A stretch of 39,533 bases of DNA from Verrucomicrobiota bacterium (GTDB lineage: Bacteria; Verrucomicrobiota; Verrucomicrobiia; Limisphaerales; UBA9464): assembly GCA_947454705.1 (NCBI GenBank), contig CANGKZ010000044.1:1-39533 (forward strand). Direction: 5' to 3'. Position 1 is the first letter of the stretch. The number at the start of each line of letters is the position of its first letter. A program made the position numbers and the translations under genes. The notes beneath the pieces were generated by a model. The model had not been told where the DNA came from. It saw nothing but the letters and a program-made list of their open reading frames with translations, and did not search any database. Below are positions 4,142-24,515 of this stretch, piece after piece.

Positions 4142-4423
4142 TCCGAATCTGACGCTTTCGCACGGAGTCCCGCAATCACGCGGCTCCGGTGCGCGCGCGG
4201 GAAAGTTACCAACGGTGAGTTCGAAGATCGCAGATTGATCAAGCGATGCTGCATGCTGGATCCAAGATTCCGAACCCTCCGTCGGATCGGCAGTCGCCAC
4301 GATTTTGGAGTGCGGTGGCAGAGCGCAGCGCCGACACCGCTTTCGATCCCGGGTGAAAAGAAAAACCGACCGCCCACCTCCGCGCCATCCTTCGTCGTAC
4401 GATGCCGCATTCGCCCCGTTTTC
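4142..4423. repeat. Gene-free spacer with decayed palindromic repeats
   Basis: No gene is supported here. About 4155-4185 resembles a decayed VR-B arm (GGAGTCCCGCAATCACGCGG). A degenerate GATGCTG array is at 4245-4260. A hairpin-forming segment at 4312-4340 pairs GCGGTG with CACCGC around a GC-rich loop, like a REP-type palindrome. Confidence 0.55.
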
Positions 4424-4615
4424 GTAGCCGCCGAGGGAACGAGGCGGATCACCCGAAGCCACCAAGTGGTCGTCGCTCAATGGGTCGAGCTTCACCTGGC
4501 CAATCAACAGTCTCACTTTACCCTGTAAACGATCCGCCCCCGCACGTCCGGCCCAATGAAAGATCGGGTGCGATTCTCGAACCCGCCTGATCCGCCTCGT
4601 CCCCTCGGCGGCTAC
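4424..4615. repeat. VR-A palindromic element, full copy 1 (192 bp)
   Basis: A 192-bp element with long near-perfect terminal inverted repeats. The left end begins GTAGCCGCCGAGGGAACGAG and the right end is its complement ending CTCGGCGGCTAC; about 28 bp pair on each side. It has exactly the same length as the copy at 19549-19740, and the two share internal blocks such as GTCGTCGCTCAAT and CACGTCCGGCCCAATG. It encodes no protein, so it is either a MITE-like non-autonomous element or a structured intergenic repeat. Confidence 0.8.
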
Positions 4616-6010: not shown

Positions 6011-6991
6011 GTGAGCATCAAGAACATTGGAATCATCGGAGTGGGCGGGGTGGGAGGCTACTTCGGAGGCAAACTGTGCCGGCTGCAAACGGACGACAGC
6101 GGGATCCGCGTTTCGTTCGTGGCGCGCGGTGAGCATCTACGGGTGATTCAGGAATCCGGCCTGTTGTTGGCCTCGGAGGGCGATGGCGAACAGGTCTGTC
6201 GGCCCGCCTTGGCGACGAACGACTTCAGGGAACTCCCGCCGTTGGACCTTTGCCTGATCTGCGTCAAAGAGTTTGATCTTTCGGCGGCGTTGACCGCGCT
6301 GGCTCCTCTCGTCGGTGAGAACACGATGCTTCTGCCGCTGTTGAACGGAGTGGATGTCCATTCCAGGGTCCGAAGCGTGATCCAAAACCCAAAGGCGGTC
6401 GTGCTGCCTGCGTGCGTGTACGTGGGGACCCACATCGAGCGACCCGGCATGGTTCGCCAGAAAGGCGGCTCGTGCAGGATCCTCTTCGGTCTCGATCCCC
6501 AGCGGAGCGATTATGACCCGCAGGAATTGATCTCTCTGTTCGATCAGGCCGGCATCAAATCCGAGTGGACCTCGGACATTCAGGTGGAGATCTGGAGGAA
6601 GTTCATCTTCATCTGCGCGTATGGATTGGTGTCCGCCGCCTGCGGCAAGACGCTGGGAGAGATTGTCCGGGATCCGGGGCTTCTGGCGGAGGTTCGAGGC
6701 ATCATGACGGAAGCGAGCGCGCTGGCGCGGGCATCGGGCGTCCGATTGCCTGACGACATCGTCGAGAAGTCGCTCTTGAAGGCCCGTGATTTTCCTTCGA
6801 CCGCCAAGACGTCCTTTCAGCGGGACTTTGAGCGTCCGGACAGACTCGATGAGCGGGACCTGTTCGGCGGTGCCATGCTCCGACTGGCGGAGCGACTGAG
6901 CATCGAGGTTCCGGCAACCCGTGCAGTCTTCGCCGAACTCATCAAGCGAAAGCCGGTTCAAACGGAAGGCGGCAGTTTAAACCGCAGATAA
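6011..6991 (+). CDS. Ketopantoate reductase family (PanE/ApbA) oxidoreductase
   Basis: A 326-residue NADP-dependent dehydrogenase of the 2-dehydropantoate 2-reductase family, which reduces ketopantoate to pantoate in pantothenate/CoA synthesis. The Rossmann glycine motif GVGGVGGYFGG is at residues 10-20, a conserved Lys follows the second core strand (CVKEFD, K86), LLNGVD carries N112, and WRKF carries the expected catalytic Lys (K197). Family members include paralogs of unknown substrate, so panE is not assigned. The start is GTG at 6011, just before the first beta strand. The last six residues (GSLNRR) and the stop codon are supplied by the VR-C repeat starting at 6971, so the original C-terminus may have been replaced. 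Confidence 0.85.
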   Translation: MSIKNIGIIGVGGVGGYFGGKLCRLQTDDSGIRVSFVARGEHLRVIQESGLLLASEGDGEQVCRPALATNDFRELPPLDLCLICVKEFDLSAALTALAPLVGENTMLLPLLNGVDVHSRVRSVIQNPKAVVLPACVYVGTHIERPGMVRQKGGSCRILFGLDPQRSDYDPQELISLFDQAGIKSEWTSDIQVEIWRKFIFICAYGLVSAACGKTLGEIVRDPGLLAEVRGIMTEASALARASGVRLPDDIVEKSLLKARDFPSTAKTSFQRDFERPDRLDERDLFGGAMLRLAERLSIEVPATRAVFAELIKRKPVQTEGGSLNRR

Positions 6992-7136
6992 ACGCAGATG
7001 AACGCAGATGAACGCAGATGGGGAGGGAGATGAATCGTTGGATGCCCCTCAAGTTCATTCACCGGCTGGGTGATTCGCAATGGCCTCCGTTCCGCGCATT
7101 CGAATCTGCGTTCATTGCGGTTGTTTTCCCTCCCAA
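6971..7136. repeat. VR-C palindromic repeat, copy 1
   Basis: A CGCAGATGAACGCAGATG-type tandem at 6983-7020, and its reverse complement near 7105-7125 (ATCTGCGTTCATTGCGGTTG), frame a variable middle. The reverse complement of 11038-11214 matches it along its length, including GGCAG-AACCGCAGAT at the left and GCGGTTGTTTTC at the right. It overlaps the end of the ketopantoate reductase-like gene. Confidence 0.75.
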
Positions 7137-7162
7137 CTCCGGAGTTATGCGGCGGCATTCCT

Positions 7163-7314
7163 CACACGTTTGGAGTACCGCGTTTACGCGGCTCTGCGGT
7201 TGGACGAGGGGTTATCGAACGGTTGGAAATCAACCGGCTGCATCCCTCGAAACACGCCTCCCCGAACCGTCTGAAGACGGGACTCCAAACGAATGAGAAA
7301 ACCCTCTCGGCAGC
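7163..7314. repeat. VR-B hairpin element, copy 1 (152 bp)
   Basis: Begins CACACGTTTGGAGTACCGCG and contains the hairpin CCGCGTTTACGCGG. It ends with a second hairpin CCGTCTGAAGACGG followed by GACTCCAAACGAATGAG and CGGCAGC. The two ends form an inverted repeat (CGTTTGGAGT...ACTCCAAACG). Same length and order as 24205-24356. It lies 26 bp after VR-C copy 1, making the composite repeated in inverted form at 10854-11214. Confidence 0.75.
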
Positions 7315-7351
7315 TTCCGAGACAGCGGCCCGACCATGCGCGACAGCAACT

Positions 7352-7597
7352 TCAGCCGGCAGCGCGTGGCGGCGGGGCGCCAAAATGTTTCAGGAAGAGT
7401 TCCCGGCATTTGATCAGCCCTTCGTCCGTCAGGGCCACCGATTTGGACTTGTTGGCGGCGTCGTAGATCAAGCCCTTGGTGCAGAGGCGCTCCAGGACAT
7501 CCCAGTCCATTCCTTTCCACGCGCGATTGCCGTCGTGGAGCGTCAGAAAGAGCAGGGCCAACGCCATTTCATCGACTTTGTCTTGGTCAAAGTTCAT
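7352..7597 (-). CDS. DUF6429 family small protein
   Basis: An 81-residue cytoplasmic protein read on the minus strand, opposite to all neighbours between 4.7 and 17.2 kb. It matches the small DUF6429 pattern: KVDEMALALLFLTLHDG, RAWKGMDWDVLERL, GLIYDAANKSKSVALTDEGL. This family looks like a compact winged-helix-like fold and its function is unknown. The ATG at 7597 is preferred because the family begins with a short acidic N-terminus (MNFDQDKVDEM); upstream in-frame codons read into unrelated sequence. It lies just inside the left arm of the inverted composite repeat. Confidence 0.8.
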   Translation of the reverse strand: MNFDQDKVDEMALALLFLTLHDGNRAWKGMDWDVLERLCTKGLIYDAANKSKSVALTDEGLIKCRELFLKHFGAPPPRAAG

Positions 7598-7929
7598 AGC
7601 CGAACTCTGGGGGGTGGCGGCTTCATTTTCAAGTGGGTGGCGGCATGGACTCCCGCGCGCCCGTCCTCTTACCAATCTTGGTTTTTGAGTTTGATGAGGG
7701 AAACGCGTAGGCTTCGGCCGGTTCGTTTTTCGGTGAAAGAGGAGTGGTACATCTCAATGGATTCTGGACTGCGCTTCCTTGGGTGCGAGGTGACGGGGCG
7801 AAGCGCGCACTTTAGCGGAGGTGCGCCCTACTCTCTGCGCTGTGGCACCCGCCGAGTTAAAGTTCGGCGGTCGATCCGTTGTGGGCCTTGAATGATATGA
7901 ATGTCGTATCGAACAGGAGCAGGGGACAG
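7598..7929. other. Spacer with two hairpins, no gene seen
   Basis: No supported gene. Two short hairpins lie before the next gene: GCGCAC (7804-7809) with GTGCGC (7821-7826), and CCGCCGA (7849-7855) with TCGGCGG (7864-7870). They may be another intergenic palindrome family or transcript-end structures. Confidence 0.45.
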
Positions 7930-8226
7930 ATGTGGAGGCGGGGAGTCGGGTATGTCCTGAGCTTCTCTCTCGCCGTGGTGGTGGGAGAAATTTCCATGTT
8001 TCGTTTCAGTCGGGATGTTTTGGATCGTTTGTTTCCAAGCGTGCATCGCGATTGGCCTGCGGGGTGGGTTGCGTTGCTGGTTTTGATCGCCGCAGCGGGA
8101 TCCGGAATCTACCTGATGTGGCGGCGCGAGATTCTGCTCGGGGTGGTGATTTTTGGACTCTCTGCAGGAGGAGTGGGGACTGTGGCCTTTCAGCTCCTGT
8201 TGTTGCATACGCTTCCATCCTGTTAA
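7930..8226 (+). CDS. Small three-helix membrane protein, unknown function
   Basis: A 98-residue integral membrane protein with hydrophobic segments at about residues 8-24, 46-63 and 69-93. The ATG at 7930 is chosen because AGGGGAC lies about 6 bp upstream as a ribosome binding site; in-frame starts at 7879 (GTG) and 7897 (ATG) would add up to 17 polar residues. No family recognised. It sits inside the block bounded by the inverted composite repeats. Confidence 0.5.
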   Translation: MWRRGVGYVLSFSLAVVVGEISMFRFSRDVLDRLFPSVHRDWPAGWVALLVLIAAAGSGIYLMWRREILLGVVIFGLSAGGVGTVAFQLLLLHTLPSC

Positions 8227-8283
8227 CTCCAAACCAGCTGCAGGAACTAATTGTCGGGTGTCGCGGAGGCCACGGAGTTTTGG

Positions 8284-8365
8284 GCAATACCGGGCTTCGG
8301 CGGTGGTTCACCTGGGGCGTTCGCCTCGTTCTCGGGCTTGAGCCTCGATGCTAACCCGGTATTGC
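8284..8365. promoter_or_regulatory. Perfect 11-bp inverted repeat before the antitoxin gene
   Basis: GCAATACCGGG at 8284-8294 is perfectly complementary to CCCGGTATTGC at 8355-8365, with 60 nt between that also hold small hairpins. The right arm ends 6 bp before the antitoxin ATG. It could be a repeat element end, an operator (antitoxins often repress themselves), or an mRNA hairpin masking the start. Confidence 0.4.
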
Positions 8366-8371
8366 TACGAT

Positions 8372-8587
8372 ATGAGCAGCATCCAAGAAATCGAGGCCGC
8401 GATCGAGACGCTGCCCGCTGAGCAGTTCCTGCTGCTGCGAGAGCACATGCAGAAGCGCTTCGAGGAACAGTGGGACAAGCAGTTCGAAGAGGACGCCTCC
8501 AGCGGCAGGCTGGAGGCAGCCGCGGCGGCAGCGATTGCCGAGCACCGGGTGGGGCGGAGCACCCCTTTCCCTGCGAATGCGCAGTAG
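8372..8587 (+). CDS. Addiction-module antitoxin-like protein (orphan)
   Basis: A 71-residue, mostly helical and charged protein: MSSIQEIEAAIETLP at the start, a Glu/Lys-rich middle (EQWDKQFEEDASSGRL) and an EHRVGRSTPF tail. This layout matches a common antitoxin group whose genes overlap a downstream RelE/HigB-like toxin gene. The ATG at 8372 fits the family start; an upstream ATG at 8348 would add eight unrelated residues. Its toxin partner survives only as a short stub overlapping its stop codon. It likely folded with and neutralised that toxin; now it may be free to act against a related toxin elsewhere. Confidence 0.65.
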   Translation: MSSIQEIEAAIETLPAEQFLLLREHMQKRFEEQWDKQFEEDASSGRLEAAAAAAIAEHRVGRSTPFPANAQ

Positions 8588-8672
8588 AGCTGTCAGGAGT
8601 TTCCGGGACAGATTCCACGAGCAGCCTGAGACGATGCATAGCTCGGCGATCAGTGGCATCCATCAGGACTGA
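8577..8672 (+). pseudogene. Truncated RelE/HigB-like toxin stub
   Basis: A 31-codon frame starts 11 nt before the end of the antitoxin gene, the usual overlap in these modules. It begins MRSRAVRSFRDRFHEQPE, similar to the first residues of toxins paired with this antitoxin type (start Met, basic residues, then xFRxxFxxLPE). After that the reading frame loses resemblance and stops at 8670-8672, far short of the roughly 90-100 residues of such toxins. Interpreted as a decayed toxin gene; the call rests on a short match plus the overlap geometry. Confidence 0.45.
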
Positions 8673-8814
8673 GGACGGAAAAAGAAATCAAAGGGGGAAG
8701 AAATGATGTGGAGAAATTCGCCGCTTAAGCTCTTGTTTCCATCAAGGCCGTGGGGTTGGCAACGAATCTCCGGCGTATTGTCCCAATTGCTCACCAATCA
8801 TCCGAAGACTTGCT

Positions 8815-9084
8815 ATGCGCGATCTTACCGACCCGTTCTGGATCAAGTTCAAGGGGGCGCTTTTTCTTCTGCTCGGAGTGTTCTCCGGCGGTCTGATACT
8901 GGCTGAGTTGCCATCCCTGCGAGTGGCGTGCCTGCTTCTCATTACGGTTTGGGCGTTCTGCAGGGCGTACTACTTCGCATTTTACGTCATCGAGAAGTAC
9001 GTCGATCCCAGCTTCCGATTCAGTGGTCTCGGCTCCGCTGCCCGGTACCTCATGCAACCACGTCCGAAGATTTCGGCCTCTTGA
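8815..9084 (+). CDS. Small two-helix membrane protein
   Basis: An 89-residue protein with two hydrophobic segments (about residues 12-30 and 36-55) followed by an aromatic-rich stretch (FCRAYYFAFYVIEKYVDPSFRFSG) and a basic tail. The pattern looks like a conserved small verrucomicrobial membrane protein, but no named family is recalled with certainty. A different-frame ORF starting at 8703 has a good ribosome binding site (AGGGGGAAGAAATG) but weak protein character; if translated it would overlap this start. Confidence 0.6.
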   Translation: MRDLTDPFWIKFKGALFLLLGVFSGGLILAELPSLRVACLLLITVWAFCRAYYFAFYVIEKYVDPSFRFSGLGSAARYLMQPRPKISAS

Positions 9085-9206
9085 GGGTTCGAGCCCATCG
9101 TGCTCCGTGAGTGGCCGAACTGGCCACTCACGCTGACGTGGCGAGCGCGTTTGGCTTTAGCGGTGGTTTCCTTGGAGGACTGGGCGCGGAGTTTCGGGAA
9201 TTGGAG

Positions 9207-9743
9207 ATGATCCTGCACCGAGTTAATTCTCGTATTCGACGGGCAACAATCGCGGCCGCTGCCGCCCTTGCTGGCTTGGTTGGGTTTGGCGGTCCACACT
9301 GGGTGGGTGGCTATTGGCGGGGTGCCTATTTCTCATGTCTCTGCAGCGCGGATATGGTCGCCGAGTTCTGTGACGGCCAAGTCGTGACTCACCTGGATCC
9401 ATGGCCCAGTTCCGCCGATTCCCCGGGCAGCTCCCGCACGATTTCCAGCAATGCTGCGGGGGCCTATCGCCGCACGGGCTGGCATTCCTTTGAGTGGTCG
9501 CAGCCAACGGGTCGTGGTGGCCTGTCTCGTCTCACAGTTAAGCCGGGCTGGCTGGTCTGCCGCATCGAGGACCCCGAAACCCGCCAGGTCTGGTGGGGTT
9601 ACCGCGAATACAACGTCTCCCGCATCCTGCGGATCCGCGCGCATCGGCAGCAAAGCCTCCAGCCAAGGGCTCCCGTGAATGGCCGTTTGCCGTCGGGTTC
9701 TGATTTTGAATTGGCCGCGCCGGCAGGCGGTCCAGTTCGCTGA
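9207..9743 (+). CDS. Hypothetical exported or anchored protein
   Basis: A 178-residue protein. The ATG at 9207 follows a GGAG ribosome binding site and starts a basic stretch plus hydrophobic helix (about residues 9-25), a signal peptide or anchor. Upstream in-frame starts would place this helix in the middle of the protein. The body has a Cys pair (CLCSADMVAEFC, about residues 41-52), a Ser-rich linker and a Trp/Arg-rich strand region (CRIEDPETRQVWWGYREYN). No family is recognised. Confidence 0.5.
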   Translation: MILHRVNSRIRRATIAAAAALAGLVGFGGPHWVGGYWRGAYFSCLCSADMVAEFCDGQVVTHLDPWPSSADSPGSSRTISSNAAGAYRRTGWHSFEWSQPTGRGGLSRLTVKPGWLVCRIEDPETRQVWWGYREYNVSRILRIRAHRQQSLQPRAPVNGRLPSGSDFELAAPAGGPVR

Positions 9744-9773
9744 ACTTGTCCAGAGGCCGCTTCAACCAACTTC

Positions 9774-10166
9774 ATGAAGTCGACACCGACACAGCTTTGG
9801 AACGCCTGGCGTACCTCAACGGAGCTGCGTGAAACTGCCGAGGCCTGGATTACCAAGCCAGAGAGCGATTGGACTGAAGATCACGAACGGTTGCAGGGAA
9901 TGATTCGGTCGGCGCCTGAGGAGGCACTCGCGACGATGCTGGGCATCATGCAGATGACCGACGAACCGAGGCTGTTGAACGGGCTGGCCGCCGGTCCGTT
10001 GGAGGATTTTCTCGGCGTGCATGGAGAGGCCTACATGGACACGATTCACACTCTCGCGCTGGAGCATCGCCGTCTGCGCGAGGTCTTGGATGGCGTTTGG
10101 CAGGGGGCGATGCCGAAGCGGGTATGGCGAAGGGTCGAGCTGCTCAAGCAGAGCGCCTTTTCATGA
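9774..10166 (+). CDS. DUF6869 family protein
   Basis: A 130-residue soluble helical protein. The central and C-terminal parts match the DUF6869 pattern: LLNGLAAGPLEDFLGVHGEAYMDTIHTLA followed by LREVLDGVW and PKRVWRRVELL. Members are small orphan proteins of unknown function often found in accessory regions. It begins 30 bp after the preceding gene and may share its transcript. The ATG at 9774 gives a typical family length. Confidence 0.75.
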   Translation: MKSTPTQLWNAWRTSTELRETAEAWITKPESDWTEDHERLQGMIRSAPEEALATMLGIMQMTDEPRLLNGLAAGPLEDFLGVHGEAYMDTIHTLALEHRRLREVLDGVWQGAMPKRVWRRVELLKQSAFS

Positions 10167-10389
10167 AGCGAACCAACCTGTCGGTAGGATTGGTCTACCA
10201 GCAGTTCATTGAAAAACCGAAGACTCGAATGAATCGTGGACTTCCAATGAACTGTTTGGCTTCGAGGCTGCGGTGATTGGTGATTCGGTAAAATCCAAAT
10301 CGCGACCAACCACGATTCCGTGGGCGTTGAGCAGAGTGAACCAAGCCACCGAGATGCCCCAGGATGCGGGCTGGATCCGGAGGGAATCG
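10167..10389. other. Short spacer, nothing definite
   Basis: No gene supported. A small hairpin is possible near 10180-10200 (GGTAG with CTACC). In-frame upstream extension of the next gene is open across 10273-10389, but the peptide is polar and unlike a signal. Confidence 0.4.
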
Positions 10390-10749
10390 ATGCGCACCAC
10401 ACGACAATCTTCCAAATGGCTCAAGGGGCTGTTCTTGGGCGGAGCGCTTTGTGCTTTCGGCGGCTTCATCGGTTCAGCCGTTTACGCCGTCCTCCATGAG
10501 TGGCCTCGGCACACATCAGCCCTGCCGCTTTATGCTCGGATGGTAGCCGGCGCGTTGATCTGTTTTGGCCTGACCTTCGGAATGACGCTGGTTCACACCG
10601 CCAGCACTGGTGGCTACTATTCCGGACTCGCTCGGCGACAGGTCACTCGGAAAAACGATCCCATTCATTTTTGGACGCTGCTTGGCAGCATCGGAGTGTT
10701 GCCGCTGGCAATAGTGGTCTTTGGAGTTTGGAAATTCATCACCGCCTAG
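10390..10749 (+). CDS. Small three-helix membrane protein
   Basis: A 119-residue protein beginning MRTTRQSSKWLKG with a basic N-terminus, then hydrophobic segments at about residues 13-34, 48-66 and 93-115. It has no recognised domain. The start at 10390 is preferred because the preceding open sequence from 10273 lacks hydrophobic or domain character. It is the last gene before the right arm of the inverted composite repeat. Confidence 0.5.
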   Translation: MRTTRQSSKWLKGLFLGGALCAFGGFIGSAVYAVLHEWPRHTSALPLYARMVAGALICFGLTFGMTLVHTASTGGYYSGLARRQVTRKNDPIHFWTLLGSIGVLPLAIVVFGVWKFITA

Positions 10750-10853
10750 TCGGAACGAACCTGCCCATCTCCGATTCCAGCGGCAGTGCTTTGGTCGATC
10801 CGCCGAGGGGCTTCCAATCCGGAAACGACGGCGCTGGCGCTGGTCGTTTTGAA

Positions 10854-10990
10854 ACTGCCGCGATGAGATTCTCAGGGGTTTGGAGTCCCGTCTTCAGACG
10901 GTTCGGGGAAGCGTGTCTTTGGGCATGCAGCGGGTCGATTTTCAACCGTTCGACAGCAGAGCCGCGTAAACGCGGTACTCCGAACGTGTG
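10854..10990. repeat. VR-B hairpin element, copy 2 (inverted)
   Basis: In reverse orientation to copies 1 and 3. It begins with ACTGCCGCGATGAG and GGTTTGGAGTCCCGTC, contains the CCGTCTTCAGACGG hairpin, and ends with CCGCGTAAACGCGG then TACTCCGAACGTGTG. It is 137 bp against 152 bp in the other two, so its centre is slightly shortened. Confidence 0.75.
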
Positions 10991-11037
10991 AGTAGCTTCG
11001 CCTTCGACCCGTCAACCTCGGGGTGATTGCGGGAGTT

Positions 11038-11214
11038 GAGAGTGAAAACAACCGCCGATGAATGCCGATGGACGCAGATTCGAATGCGGGGACCGGATGG
11101 CATTGAGACTCACCAAACAGGTGAATGAATCCGAAGCGCACCCAATGATTGATCTCCCTCTGAATCTGCGTTCATTTGCGCCCATCTGCGGTTCGAGCTG
11201 CCGTTTTCAGGCTC
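11038..11214. repeat. VR-C palindromic repeat, copy 2 (inverted)
   Basis: Read in reverse complement it matches copy 1 at 6971-7136 through both arms and the middle (GACGCAGATTCGAATGCG and GTGAATGAA are shared). Its outer ends also pair with each other (GTGAAAAC at 11042 with GTTTTCAGG at 11202). It follows VR-B copy 2 after about 47 bp. Confidence 0.75.
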
Positions 11215-11258
11215 AATTGCGGTCATTGGTTTCAATCCACAAAGGTTGATTTGATTTT

Positions 11259-11507: not shown

Positions 11508-11740
11508 GTGGGGCCGGCCTGGGGTGGCGACCGGAGATCGTCACGTGGTTCGATCTCCTGGATGCGGAGGAAGGGCGCTTGGTCGGATGAGTTTCAGGTC
11601 GGACCGGACGACCGAGTAGGAAGTTCAAGGCGCGGGCGGAGGCGCATCGGTTCCCGAATCGCGGGTTGCGCCAGACTTCTGCGATGGCTCAACTTTGGAC
11701 CGTATTCGGCACGGTTCCCATCCACGTTTACTGCCCCTCC
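11508..11740. other. Spacer without a supported gene
   Basis: No gene or clear repeat recognised. In-frame open sequence from 11666 to the next ATG exists, but the peptide has no features in common with the gene that follows. Confidence 0.4.
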
Positions 11741-12355
11741 ATGAACCCACTGCGAAAAATGTTCGGTCCCAGCAAAGAGGAAATCTGGCGGCAGCTCTGC
11801 GCCGCAACGGGGGCCGACTACGTTCAGGGCGGCTTTTGGAAGGGGGACAAGGTGGAGGCCTCGCACGGGGAGTGGACCCTCACGCTGGATAACTATGTGG
11901 TGTCCACCGGCAAGGTGACCATGGTCTTTACCCGGCTGAGAGCCCCGTACATCAACCCGGACCGCTTCCGGTTCACCATTTACCGTCGTGGTTTGTTCAG
12001 CGACATCGCCAAGTGGCTCGGAATGCAGGACGTCGTGGTGGGCCATGAGGACTTCGATCGGGATTTCATCATCAAGGGAACGGACGAGGGAAAACTGCGC
12101 GCCCTCTTCGCCAACCCGAGGCTCCGGGAGTTGATCGCGGCCCAGCCTGAGATTCATTTCACGGTGAAGGACCGAGTGACCGCAGCAGCGGGATCGGGCT
12201 TTCCCGAGGATGCAGACGAGCTTCACTTCCATGTCCATGGGGTCATCAAGGACATTGAACGCCTGAAACTCCTGTTCGAGTTGTTCGCTGAAACCCTGGA
12301 TCAATTGTGCCGGATCGGTTCGGCCGATGCGGAGGCTCTCAAGCCGAACCGATGA
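11741..12355 (+). CDS. Hypothetical soluble protein with FDRDFIIKG motif
   Basis: A 204-residue protein without membrane segments. The start at ATG 11741 begins MNPLRKMFGPSKEEIWRQL, a plausible cytoplasmic N-terminus. The central block DFDRDFIIKGTDEGKLRALF followed by ELI resembles the FDxxFxIKxxDxxxxxxLL core seen in DUF3137-type and related proteins, where a beta region is followed by a segment predicting whether a folded structure is displaced. A conserved-looking EDADELHFHVHGVIKD stretch follows near residue 165. No enzyme motif is seen; the family link is tentative. Confidence 0.6.
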   Translation: MNPLRKMFGPSKEEIWRQLCAATGADYVQGGFWKGDKVEASHGEWTLTLDNYVVSTGKVTMVFTRLRAPYINPDRFRFTIYRRGLFSDIAKWLGMQDVVVGHEDFDRDFIIKGTDEGKLRALFANPRLRELIAAQPEIHFTVKDRVTAAAGSGFPEDADELHFHVHGVIKDIERLKLLFELFAETLDQLCRIGSADAEALKPNR

Positions 12356-14336: not shown

Positions 14337-14536
14337 TTGAACCTAAAAACGGCAGTTCAAGAAGAGTTCAACCACAGATGGACACGGATAAACACAGATG
14401 AAAGCGCGCGAAACGGAAGGATTCATGGATCACCCAGACGGTGAGACCGTTTGAGACCTCTTGAGTCACGCATCTCCCTCTCTATCTGTGTGAATCTGTG
14501 TCCATCTGTGGTTTCAACTGCGGTTTTTAGGTTGAA
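14337..14536. repeat. VR-C palindromic repeat, copy 3 (about 200 bp)
   Basis: Outer arms pair closely: TTGAACCTAAAAACGGCAGT at the left, and its complement ACTGCGGTTTTTAGGTTGAA at the right. Inside lie the CACAGATGGACACGG-type tandem (14372-14400) and its complement (14480-14512). This is the copy with the longest terminal inverted repeats, so it best defines the element's ends. Confidence 0.8.
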
Positions 14537-19548: not shown

Positions 19549-19740
19549 GTAGCCGCCGAGGGGACGAGGCGGATCACCCCAGGCCACCGAGTAGTCGTCG
19601 CTCAATTGGGCGTGCTCTGCTTGGTAAATTGACGGCTTCAAACCACCCTGCAAGCGATTCGACTTCGCACGTCCGGCCCAATGGAGGCGCGGGTGAAATT
19701 CTCGGGCCCGGCTGATCCGCCTCGTTCCCTCGGCGGCTAC
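19549..19740. repeat. VR-A palindromic element, full copy 2 (192 bp)
   Basis: Starts GTAGCCGCCGAGGGGACGAG and ends CCCTCGGCGGCTAC. It is the same 192-bp length as 4424-4615, with well conserved ends and a more diverged centre, the pattern expected when the paired ends are what matters. It is followed by GAAGACAGAATGC, matched after the half copy at 28901 (GAAGCCCGAATGC). Confidence 0.8.
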
Positions 19741-24143: not shown

Positions 24144-24515
24144 GGGGAGCGGCAGTTAAAGGGTTGAAAAGTTGAAGCGTTGAAGGGGAGGAGGCCGATC
24201 TTTTCACACGTTCGGAGTACCGCGTTTACGCGGCTCTGCTGTTGGGCGGATGGATTCAGCAGTGGGGTAGAATATCACCCCGGACGATTTCACCTGCGCC
24301 TCCCTGAACCGTCTGAAGACGGGACTCCAAGCGAATGAGAAAACCCTCGCGGCAGCGTCGAGTTCCCCAGTTCCCCTTCAACGGTTCAACTTTTCAACCC
24401 TTCAACCGCCGCCGTTCGCCCGAAGGGCCGAAGTCGGCCGGGCCGCCTGCGGCCCAGTTTCTTTTCCCTAGGGGATTGCGGCACCGGGTTCCTTGGGTTA
24501 CCCATCGGCCGCTTT
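24144..24515. repeat. Large palindromic repeat region around VR-B copy 3
   Basis: Left to right: three period-8 NGTTGAAN units (24162-24185), VR-B (24205-24356), then four period-8 TTCAACNN units (24377-24408). The two flanking arrays are complementary, so the whole of about 24162-24408 can fold back on itself. The last 100 bp before the ABC operon carries a GC-rich stretch (GGCCGAAGTCGGCC-like palindrome near 24425-24440) and no clear promoter. Confidence 0.7.
24205..24356. repeat. VR-B hairpin element, copy 3 (152 bp)
   Basis: Same orientation and length as 7163-7314. It begins CACACGTTCGGAGTACCGCG and carries the CCGCGTTTACGCGG and CCGTCTGAAGACGG hairpins. It ends GACTCCAAGCGAATGAG plus AAAACCCTCGCGGCAGC. 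The middle about 70 bp differs from copy 1, while the hairpin ends are nearly identical. Confidence 0.8.

Follow-up and report, generated by a model that had tools for sequence, protein, structure and literature searches.

Locus organization and the inverted repeat pair

The region considered here is a 39,533-nucleotide (nt) stretch from a Verrucomicrobiota bacterium (assembly GCA_947454705.1, contig CANGKZ010000044.1, positions 1 to 39,533), hereafter the window, in which a ketopantoate reductase-like gene is followed by a block of small genes lying between two inverted copies of a composite repeat (Table 1). Each copy, or arm, joins two dispersed repeats, VR-C and VR-B, through a linker. The first-pass annotation had reported both repeats at the two places in inverted order and orientation, with a partly conserved linker, and had proposed that the arms bound the enclosed 3.5-kb block, which might invert by recombination or represent a composite non-autonomous element or a hotspot. 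Both arms and the conserved linker were confirmed, and forms of the linker are also present in other copies of the repeat among the matches listed. In our view the arms most likely represent two old insertions, independent of each other, of a single mosaic family of miniature inverted-repeat transposable elements (MITEs), and their facing each other at 3.5 kb is then coincidental.

The limits of the arms were set from an alignment of 42 family copies together with the terminal repeats. Between them, the arms show 71.4% identity over 371 alignment columns, and the similarity is, as sequence, far beyond chance. It is concentrated in inverted matches of 126 nt (6990-7115/11068-11193, 80%), 103 nt (7215-7317/10851-10953, 83%), 65 nt (7161-7225/10928-10992, 80%), and 45 nt (6965-7009/11164-11208, 80%). 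Through homology to intact copies, both are classed as putative decayed MITE copies. Folding of the single-stranded DNA, which gave a z of -2.79 for the left arm and -1.35 for the right arm (11 of 100 shuffles folding equally well), was not used as evidence.

Table 1. Repeats and genes of the window, with positions counted from the first letter of the 39,533-nt stretch
Feature	Positions	Strand	Remarks
Preferred 5-bp target, TTCAA	6957-6961	+	just outside the left terminal repeat; partner lost
Left arm, putative decayed composite MITE copy	6962-7318	+	terminal repeat remnant, VR-C, linker, VR-B; right terminal repeat missing
Left terminal inverted repeat of left arm	6962-6977	+	degenerate, 6/16 mismatches to CCTAGAAACGGCAGTT
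VR-C of left arm	6978-7121	+	subterminal palindromic module, AACCGCAGAT... through ...ATCTGCGTTCATTGCGGTT
VR-B core of left arm	7172-7286	+	head-to-head doublet of GGAG-tagged repetitive extragenic palindromic (REP) hairpins
VR-B left hairpin, left arm	7172-7191		GGAGTACCGCGTTTACGCGG
VR-B right hairpin, left arm	7267-7286		CCGTCTGAAGACGGGACTCC
Enclosed small genes	7352-10749	.	DUF6429, antitoxin-like open reading frame, orphan membrane proteins, DUF6869; outside the element
Different dispersed palindromic repeat	10775-10850	.	adjoins the right arm at the place expected for that arm's right end
Right arm, second putative decayed composite MITE copy	10850-11211	-	more diverged; right terminal repeat missing
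VR-B core of right arm (REP doublet)	10882-10981	-	
Terminal inverted repeat of right arm	11196-11211	-	CCTGAAAACGGCAGCT, 3/16 mismatches; followed by CTCAA at 11212-11216
VR-C-type MITE of 190 nt (14342-14531)	14337-14536	.	well preserved, both terminal repeats, exact TTGAA duplication; best example in the window
Third VR-B doublet	24149-24412	+	lies between a GTTGAAGGGTTGAAAAG-like module and its inverse, the alternative subterminal modules; terminal repeats at the outer ends are degenerate

A mosaic MITE family with 5-bp target duplications

In the 42-copy alignment, the family extends past the arms of the window into an end that is the inverse of the left terminal repeat. The complete unit has 16-nt terminal inverted repeats (CCTARAAACGGCAGTT) and a subterminal module on each side, which is either VR-C or rich in GTTGAAG. 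Two-ended elements fall into two main length classes, one of 190 nt (VR-C alone) and one of approximately 375 nt composed of part of VR-C, the linker, VR-B, and a GTTGAAG-type module. Both units are short, have terminal inverted repeats, and leave no room for a transposase gene, as is characteristic of MITEs.

Exact 5-bp direct repeats flank 30 of the 49 two-ended elements collected in the genome of the window, against a mean of 11.3 and a maximum of 20 in 5000 shufflings of the flanks. An earlier set gave almost the same result (29 of 48, with a mean of 10.8 and at most 20 in 5000 shufflings), and among units that contain VR-B hairpin sequence the duplication is exact in 12 of 18 (shuffled 5.2, maximum 11). 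For the 48 elements of this genome, repeats of 3, 4, 6, 7, or 8 bp gave zero matches and inverted 5-mers gave four, while other element sets showed stray single flank matches at lengths of 2 or 3 only. The preferred target is TTSAA; because of this preference, shuffled flanks match fairly often, and the most telling cases are thus the five exact duplications (ATGAT, TTCAT, TTTAG, TTGAT, and TTCAG) in the 15 elements with a left flank other than TTSAA. One subset of the elements, weak by itself, contributed nine exact duplications in 17 elements (shuffled 3.95, maximum 10). In other genomes, 26 of 38 small elements, drawn from the loci of an exact-match scan and from genomes G016 and G007, have an exact 5-bp duplication (shuffled 1.95, maximum 9), and another set of small elements gave 21 of 35.

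For these counts, ends were paired at 100-450 nt in the own-genome sets and at 80-700 nt in the other-genome sets, with at most five mismatches per end in the first own-genome set, four in the 48- and 49-element sets, and three in the other-genome sets. Repeated sequences and elements within 14 nt of a locus end (8 nt in the set of 38) were left out; the own-genome sets also exclude left ends that have another left end inside, and the sets of 35 and 38 do not. A longer unit of 591 nt with the same ends and an exact TTTAC duplication lies in G016 (L235:523-1113), and its interior is a tandem array with a period, by eye, of approximately 45 nt.

Copies in the genome and relation of the two arms

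The family is abundant in the 5.45-Mb genome. With up to three mismatches, the VR-B left hairpin has 165 matches, the VR-B right hairpin 140, the VR-C head 114, and the end motif 152, whereas the corresponding reversed patterns have 1, 0, 0, and 0. When 19 genomes were searched with the left arm as query, the own genome yielded at least 41 matches (37 scored among 257 candidates), of which 20, the left arm itself excluded, are nearly full-length at 75-80% identity, all of them nearer to the left arm than the right arm is. The first-pass annotation had itself held that arms present all over the genome, with no link to differences in gene content, would speak against its reading, and the first part of this condition describes the distribution of the hairpins and the VR-C head.

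The spacing of copies was compared with random placement on a single linear 5.447-Mb string without contig ends, using 133 VR-B elements merged from 100 of the 165 and 100 of the 140 hairpin matches. Neighbours 0.5-4 kb apart form 11 pairs against 10.7 (sd 3.0) expected; eight are inverted against 5.4 (sd 2.2), a number reached in 16% of simulations. Four of the 11 are convergent like the window pair (on contigs C3, C18, and C59 and in the window), four divergent, and three direct. Because the family is so dense, the pairing and spacing of the arms are within chance, and since the arms are most likely separate copies of an element scattered over the genome, they probably do not delimit the enclosed genes. 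Of the proposed composite non-autonomous element, one part stands, in that each arm is a copy of such an element; the pair is probably not a bounding unit, as inverted neighbours occur at near-random frequency. The lead of a bounded or invertible block is thereby replaced by a concrete element family, and the boundary of the block is itself ordinary.

Sequence relations among 95 copies of VR-B point in the same direction. The left arm is nearest to L036 on contig C2 (94.6%), and the right arm is only the 71st of its 94 neighbours (78.4%), with 70 other copies closer. The VR-B tree places the right arm with L125 and L165, both on contig C9, with a support of 0.896. Both arms are, in our reading, remnants that survive from an older subtype.

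Several observations weigh against independent insertion. The compared copies were collected partly with the left arm as query. The right arm has its nearest VR-B copy in L125 at 79.1%, with the left arm second at 78.4%; in full-length comparison it matches the left arm best (71.4% versus 64.9-67.4% for 14 others). In addition, a complete VR-C running directly into the linker is found in only the two arms among 105 VR-B sites. In two further sites of this appearance (L012 and L198), the VR-C belongs to a separate MITE that abuts, and the remaining sites have a shortened VR-C (29), an alternative left module (43), or neither (29). This set requires only the VR-B left hairpin with up to four mismatches, and a few of its members are probably not real copies; a doubtful one lies at position 4163 of the window, where the right hairpin is missing. 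Downstream of the 105 sites, the MITE right module is present in 74 and the right terminal repeat (up to four mismatches) in 37. Both arms have lost the right terminal repeat, and for this reason no target duplication is demonstrable for either arm itself. It is possible that the arms share an older subtype, or that the pair has a shared origin.

One form of shared origin would be a composite transposon, in which two inverted MITEs moved the 3.5-kb block through their outer ends, and the TIME-COMP elements offer a precedent (PMC4133298). Both outer ends of the window pair are indeed left terminal repeats, their outer 5-mers (TTCAA and CTCAA) agree at four of five positions, and the subtype shared by the arms is rare. 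However, agreement at four or more positions is reached in 184 of 306 same-geometry pairings of other copies, so that these flanks argue neither for nor against a composite. The left end has 6/16 mismatches, the arms differ by 29%, and the genes outside them look accessory as well, which makes such a transposon quite improbable.

Even less credible is a switch that flips the enclosed genes by recombination of one arm with the other. Its geometry is right and the arms share one exact stretch of 32 nt, their longest, but among 40 other copies compared, exact matches to the left arm reach 94 nt; thus inversion between these two arms is not specially favoured. No recombinase was recognised among the seven enclosed open reading frames (ORFs) scanned. 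Neither inversion nor composite transposition of the block finds support in these assembled sequences, and independent insertion of the two arms is preferred in what follows.

A candidate transposase of the IS1380 type

The end sequence was detected in five of 19 genomes (127 times in the own genome, 34 in G016, four in G007, two in G014, and once in G001). An exact-match scan of the genome_contigs collection found it in at least 107 stretches, 80 of which were taken as loci, and the matches listed include records titled Verrucomicrobia, Chlamydiae, Hydrogenedentota, Nitrospira, and Proteobacteria, which suggests a MITE family widespread across these groups of records. A 37-mer from VR-B had no match in the same collection, which may omit the own genome.

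An autonomous insertion sequence (IS) that combines the MITE ends with an IS1380-type transposase is represented by one complete case, a 1586-bp IS from a groundwater gammaproteobacterium (L338:5479-7064) whose terminal repeats have 0 mismatches to CCTAAAAACGGCAGTT. Its transposase (488 aa from the chosen start, within a 502-aa frame) matches PF13701 above the cut-off (E 2.1e-16), and its best NCBIfam model is NF033539 (IS1380; E 1e-34). At a second locus, L315, a gene 84% identical to this transposase gene adjoins one such end. It is therefore an IS1380-type transposase that probably moves the MITE in trans. Some results count against this assignment: the NF033539 score (119.9) is below the curated cut-off of 180, the flanks of the L338 IS contain no exact target duplication, and L315 shows only one end. 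Moreover, no PF13701 match was obtained in the own assembly (95.7% complete, 80 contigs) among five candidates scored, and because of this we can only infer mobilisation in trans for this host.

In eight of the 80 contigs (C7, C11, C25, C28, C37, C50, C60, and C66), VR-B hairpins are located 202-423 bases from the contig start. The element family probably breaks the assembly, and cognate transposase genes may be hidden in this way.

REP doublets as cargo of the MITE

VR-B consists of two hairpins in inverted order with a GGAGT tag at each foot. Its 5-bp stem is fully paired in 122 of 143 tagged sites, and Watson-Crick variants of the stem number two in the own genome and four among 12 sites in congeners. 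The published GTAG tag is absent, the tag being GGAG, and VR-B behaves as a REP doublet. In the congener G001, doublets of the same make flank a gene resembling REP-associated tyrosine transposases (RAYTs), which scores 72 bits against NF047646 (cut-off 80) and is below the cut-off of PF01797. A second congener, G007, has an 83% homologue of this gene, and the right hairpin of its flanking doublets has a 20-mer identical to that of the arms. Because doublets of the same make flank RAYT-like genes in both genomes, VR-B is taken as RAYT-type REP DNA.

These same observations, namely the GGAG-tagged head-to-head doublet, the flanked RAYT-like genes, and the identical 20-mer in G007, would also be expected if VR-B and VR-C had been spread purely by RAYT (Y1) transposases, as bacterial interspersed mosaic elements (BIMEs) or REP doublets forming hairpins (REPINs), with no DDE-type MITE involved. 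Y1 transposition, however, is not known to leave a target duplication, and the exact 5-bp duplications of units with VR-B sequence speak against movement of the composite as a RAYT BIME. The MITE ends match those of an IS1380-type IS, and no homologue of the G001/G007 RAYT above 35% was found in the own assembly. We consider spread by RAYTs alone unlikely and conclude, on the strength of these sequence comparisons, that RAYT-type REPs travel as cargo of the MITE.

Two genes of the own genome were rejected as movers of VR-B. A Y1/RAYT-like gene on contig C26 adjoins a CGTC-like hairpin (by eye) and not the REP of the arms, and a RAYT-like gene on contig C20 is adjoined by GGAG doublets of its own, again not those of the arms. 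The latter gene (L114, G000:C20:1-2439) lies between TTTGGAGTGCGG doublets, as judged by eye, which form a second REP family of the genome.

Other cargo occurs between the same ends. In the own genome, a GGAGTTTCGGCGG hairpin is carried by six elements, two of them with an exact duplication, and a CCCAGGCC hairpin by one element without duplication; in G016, the cargo is a tandem array or a single REP-like hairpin. Somewhat speculatively, one widespread IS1380-type MITE might have captured RAYT-type REP doublets of several kinds on repeated occasions; this MITE, and not the RAYT, would now be the main REP vehicle in the lineage, so that two unrelated transposition systems would be coupled.

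For the family, the MITE mechanism is well supported by the comparisons of ends and flanks; to the two decayed arms it extends by homology only. An IS1380-type transposase, formerly present or missing from the assembly, would cut the MITE at its ends and insert it in trans, with a 5-bp duplication of the target. RAYT-type REP propagation would have produced the REP doublet, which the MITE would then have carried along as a passenger. The left copy was probably inserted into the last codons of the ketopantoate reductase-like gene, giving it a new stop, and both copies have lost their right ends.

The mosaic MITE is an unusual hybrid element, a mobile DNA of one kind that has another kind as its cargo. 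REPs are usually credited to RAYT transposases, whereas here they travel within a DDE-type MITE that leaves a clear 5-bp signature. For this genome, in which the search for a cognate RAYT found none, transport by a MITE would be another route to a high REP copy number.

The other repeat of the window, VR-A, is a GTAG-tagged REP-like hairpin, present as two head-to-head dimers (4424-4615 and 19549-19740) and, by the pattern used, two singles (17455 and 28901).

Comparison with known mobile elements

ISEcp1 is a member of the IS1380 family. The MITE resembles this family in ends that begin with CCTAG or CCTAA, in 5-bp target duplications, and in the DDE transposase of PF13701. A PF13701 gene of the congener G007 has ends CCTAGCCCGGATATTTCACA, and the left end of ISEcp1 is CCTAGATTCTACGT, with duplications of 4-5 bp (PMC7864471). 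The ends of ISEcp1 and of the G007 element agree with the MITE at their start only, whereas full agreement at both ends is seen in L338 alone.

REPs of the GTAG superfamily, with their BIMEs, REPINs, and RAYTs, also form high-copy head-to-head hairpin doublets with a tag at the foot (PMC3733652, PMC2817692, PMC3116915), and for VR-B, too, a RAYT-like gene is flanked by doublets of this kind in congeners. The REP tags listed are GYAG, GYRG, GTRG, GTMG, and GTGG (PMC3733652), and words that begin with GGAG are absent from the main text of the three papers. VR-B differs in its GGAG tag and in that many doublets lie inside the MITE and have moved with 5-bp duplications; it is at most a candidate member of the published superfamily. 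In GTAG-15 of A. variabilis and CGTC-1 of H. neapolitanus, a REP dimer lies within a longer inverted repeat (PMC3733652), and the composite MITE is similar in that a larger palindrome encloses the dimer. Palindromes free of REPs were not found in those cases, according to the same paper, whereas the 190-nt form without VR-B is common here and is itself a transposable unit.

Tn3-derived inverted-repeat miniature elements (TIMEs) are mosaic MITEs with AT-rich targets and duplications of 5 or 6 bp (PMC4133298). The present family shares with them the non-autonomous nature, AT-rich targets, duplications of this size, and mosaic derivatives, but TIME ends are approximately 40 bp long and Tn3-like, whereas the ends described here are 16 nt long and of the IS1380 type. 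No description of this MITE family was found in the portions of the literature covered; IS1380 and miniature inverted-repeat elements do appear together in some papers, and an earlier description is possible.

Genes at the locus

The ketopantoate reductase-like ORF (6011-6991; PF02558, PF08546) ends within the left arm, whose terminal repeat and VR-C encode its last codons and stop, the residues after KPVQ being derived from the element. A close orthologue was present in one of 12 other genomes (G004, 67%), with another C-terminal end, an unrelated downstream neighbour, and no arm. To the right of the arms, the protein encoded at 11666-12355 had no match in any of the 12 other genomes. The DNA outside the arms thus looks accessory, too, as judged from these comparisons.

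Within the block, at 8348-8620, what we take to be an antitoxin-like ORF is followed by a short, cut-off RelE/ParE-like start; the ORF had no family match in the profile scan. When the DNA of the block was compared with other genomes (up to 15 candidates scored per genome), the only part with relatives besides short repeats was the small membrane-protein gene at 8815-9084. Its DNA (window 8814-9051) is 80% identical to a locus (L145) in G010, which belongs to another genus, and part of it is 73% identical to G005. The neighbours at L145 differ, and the pattern looks like the sharing of a single gene.

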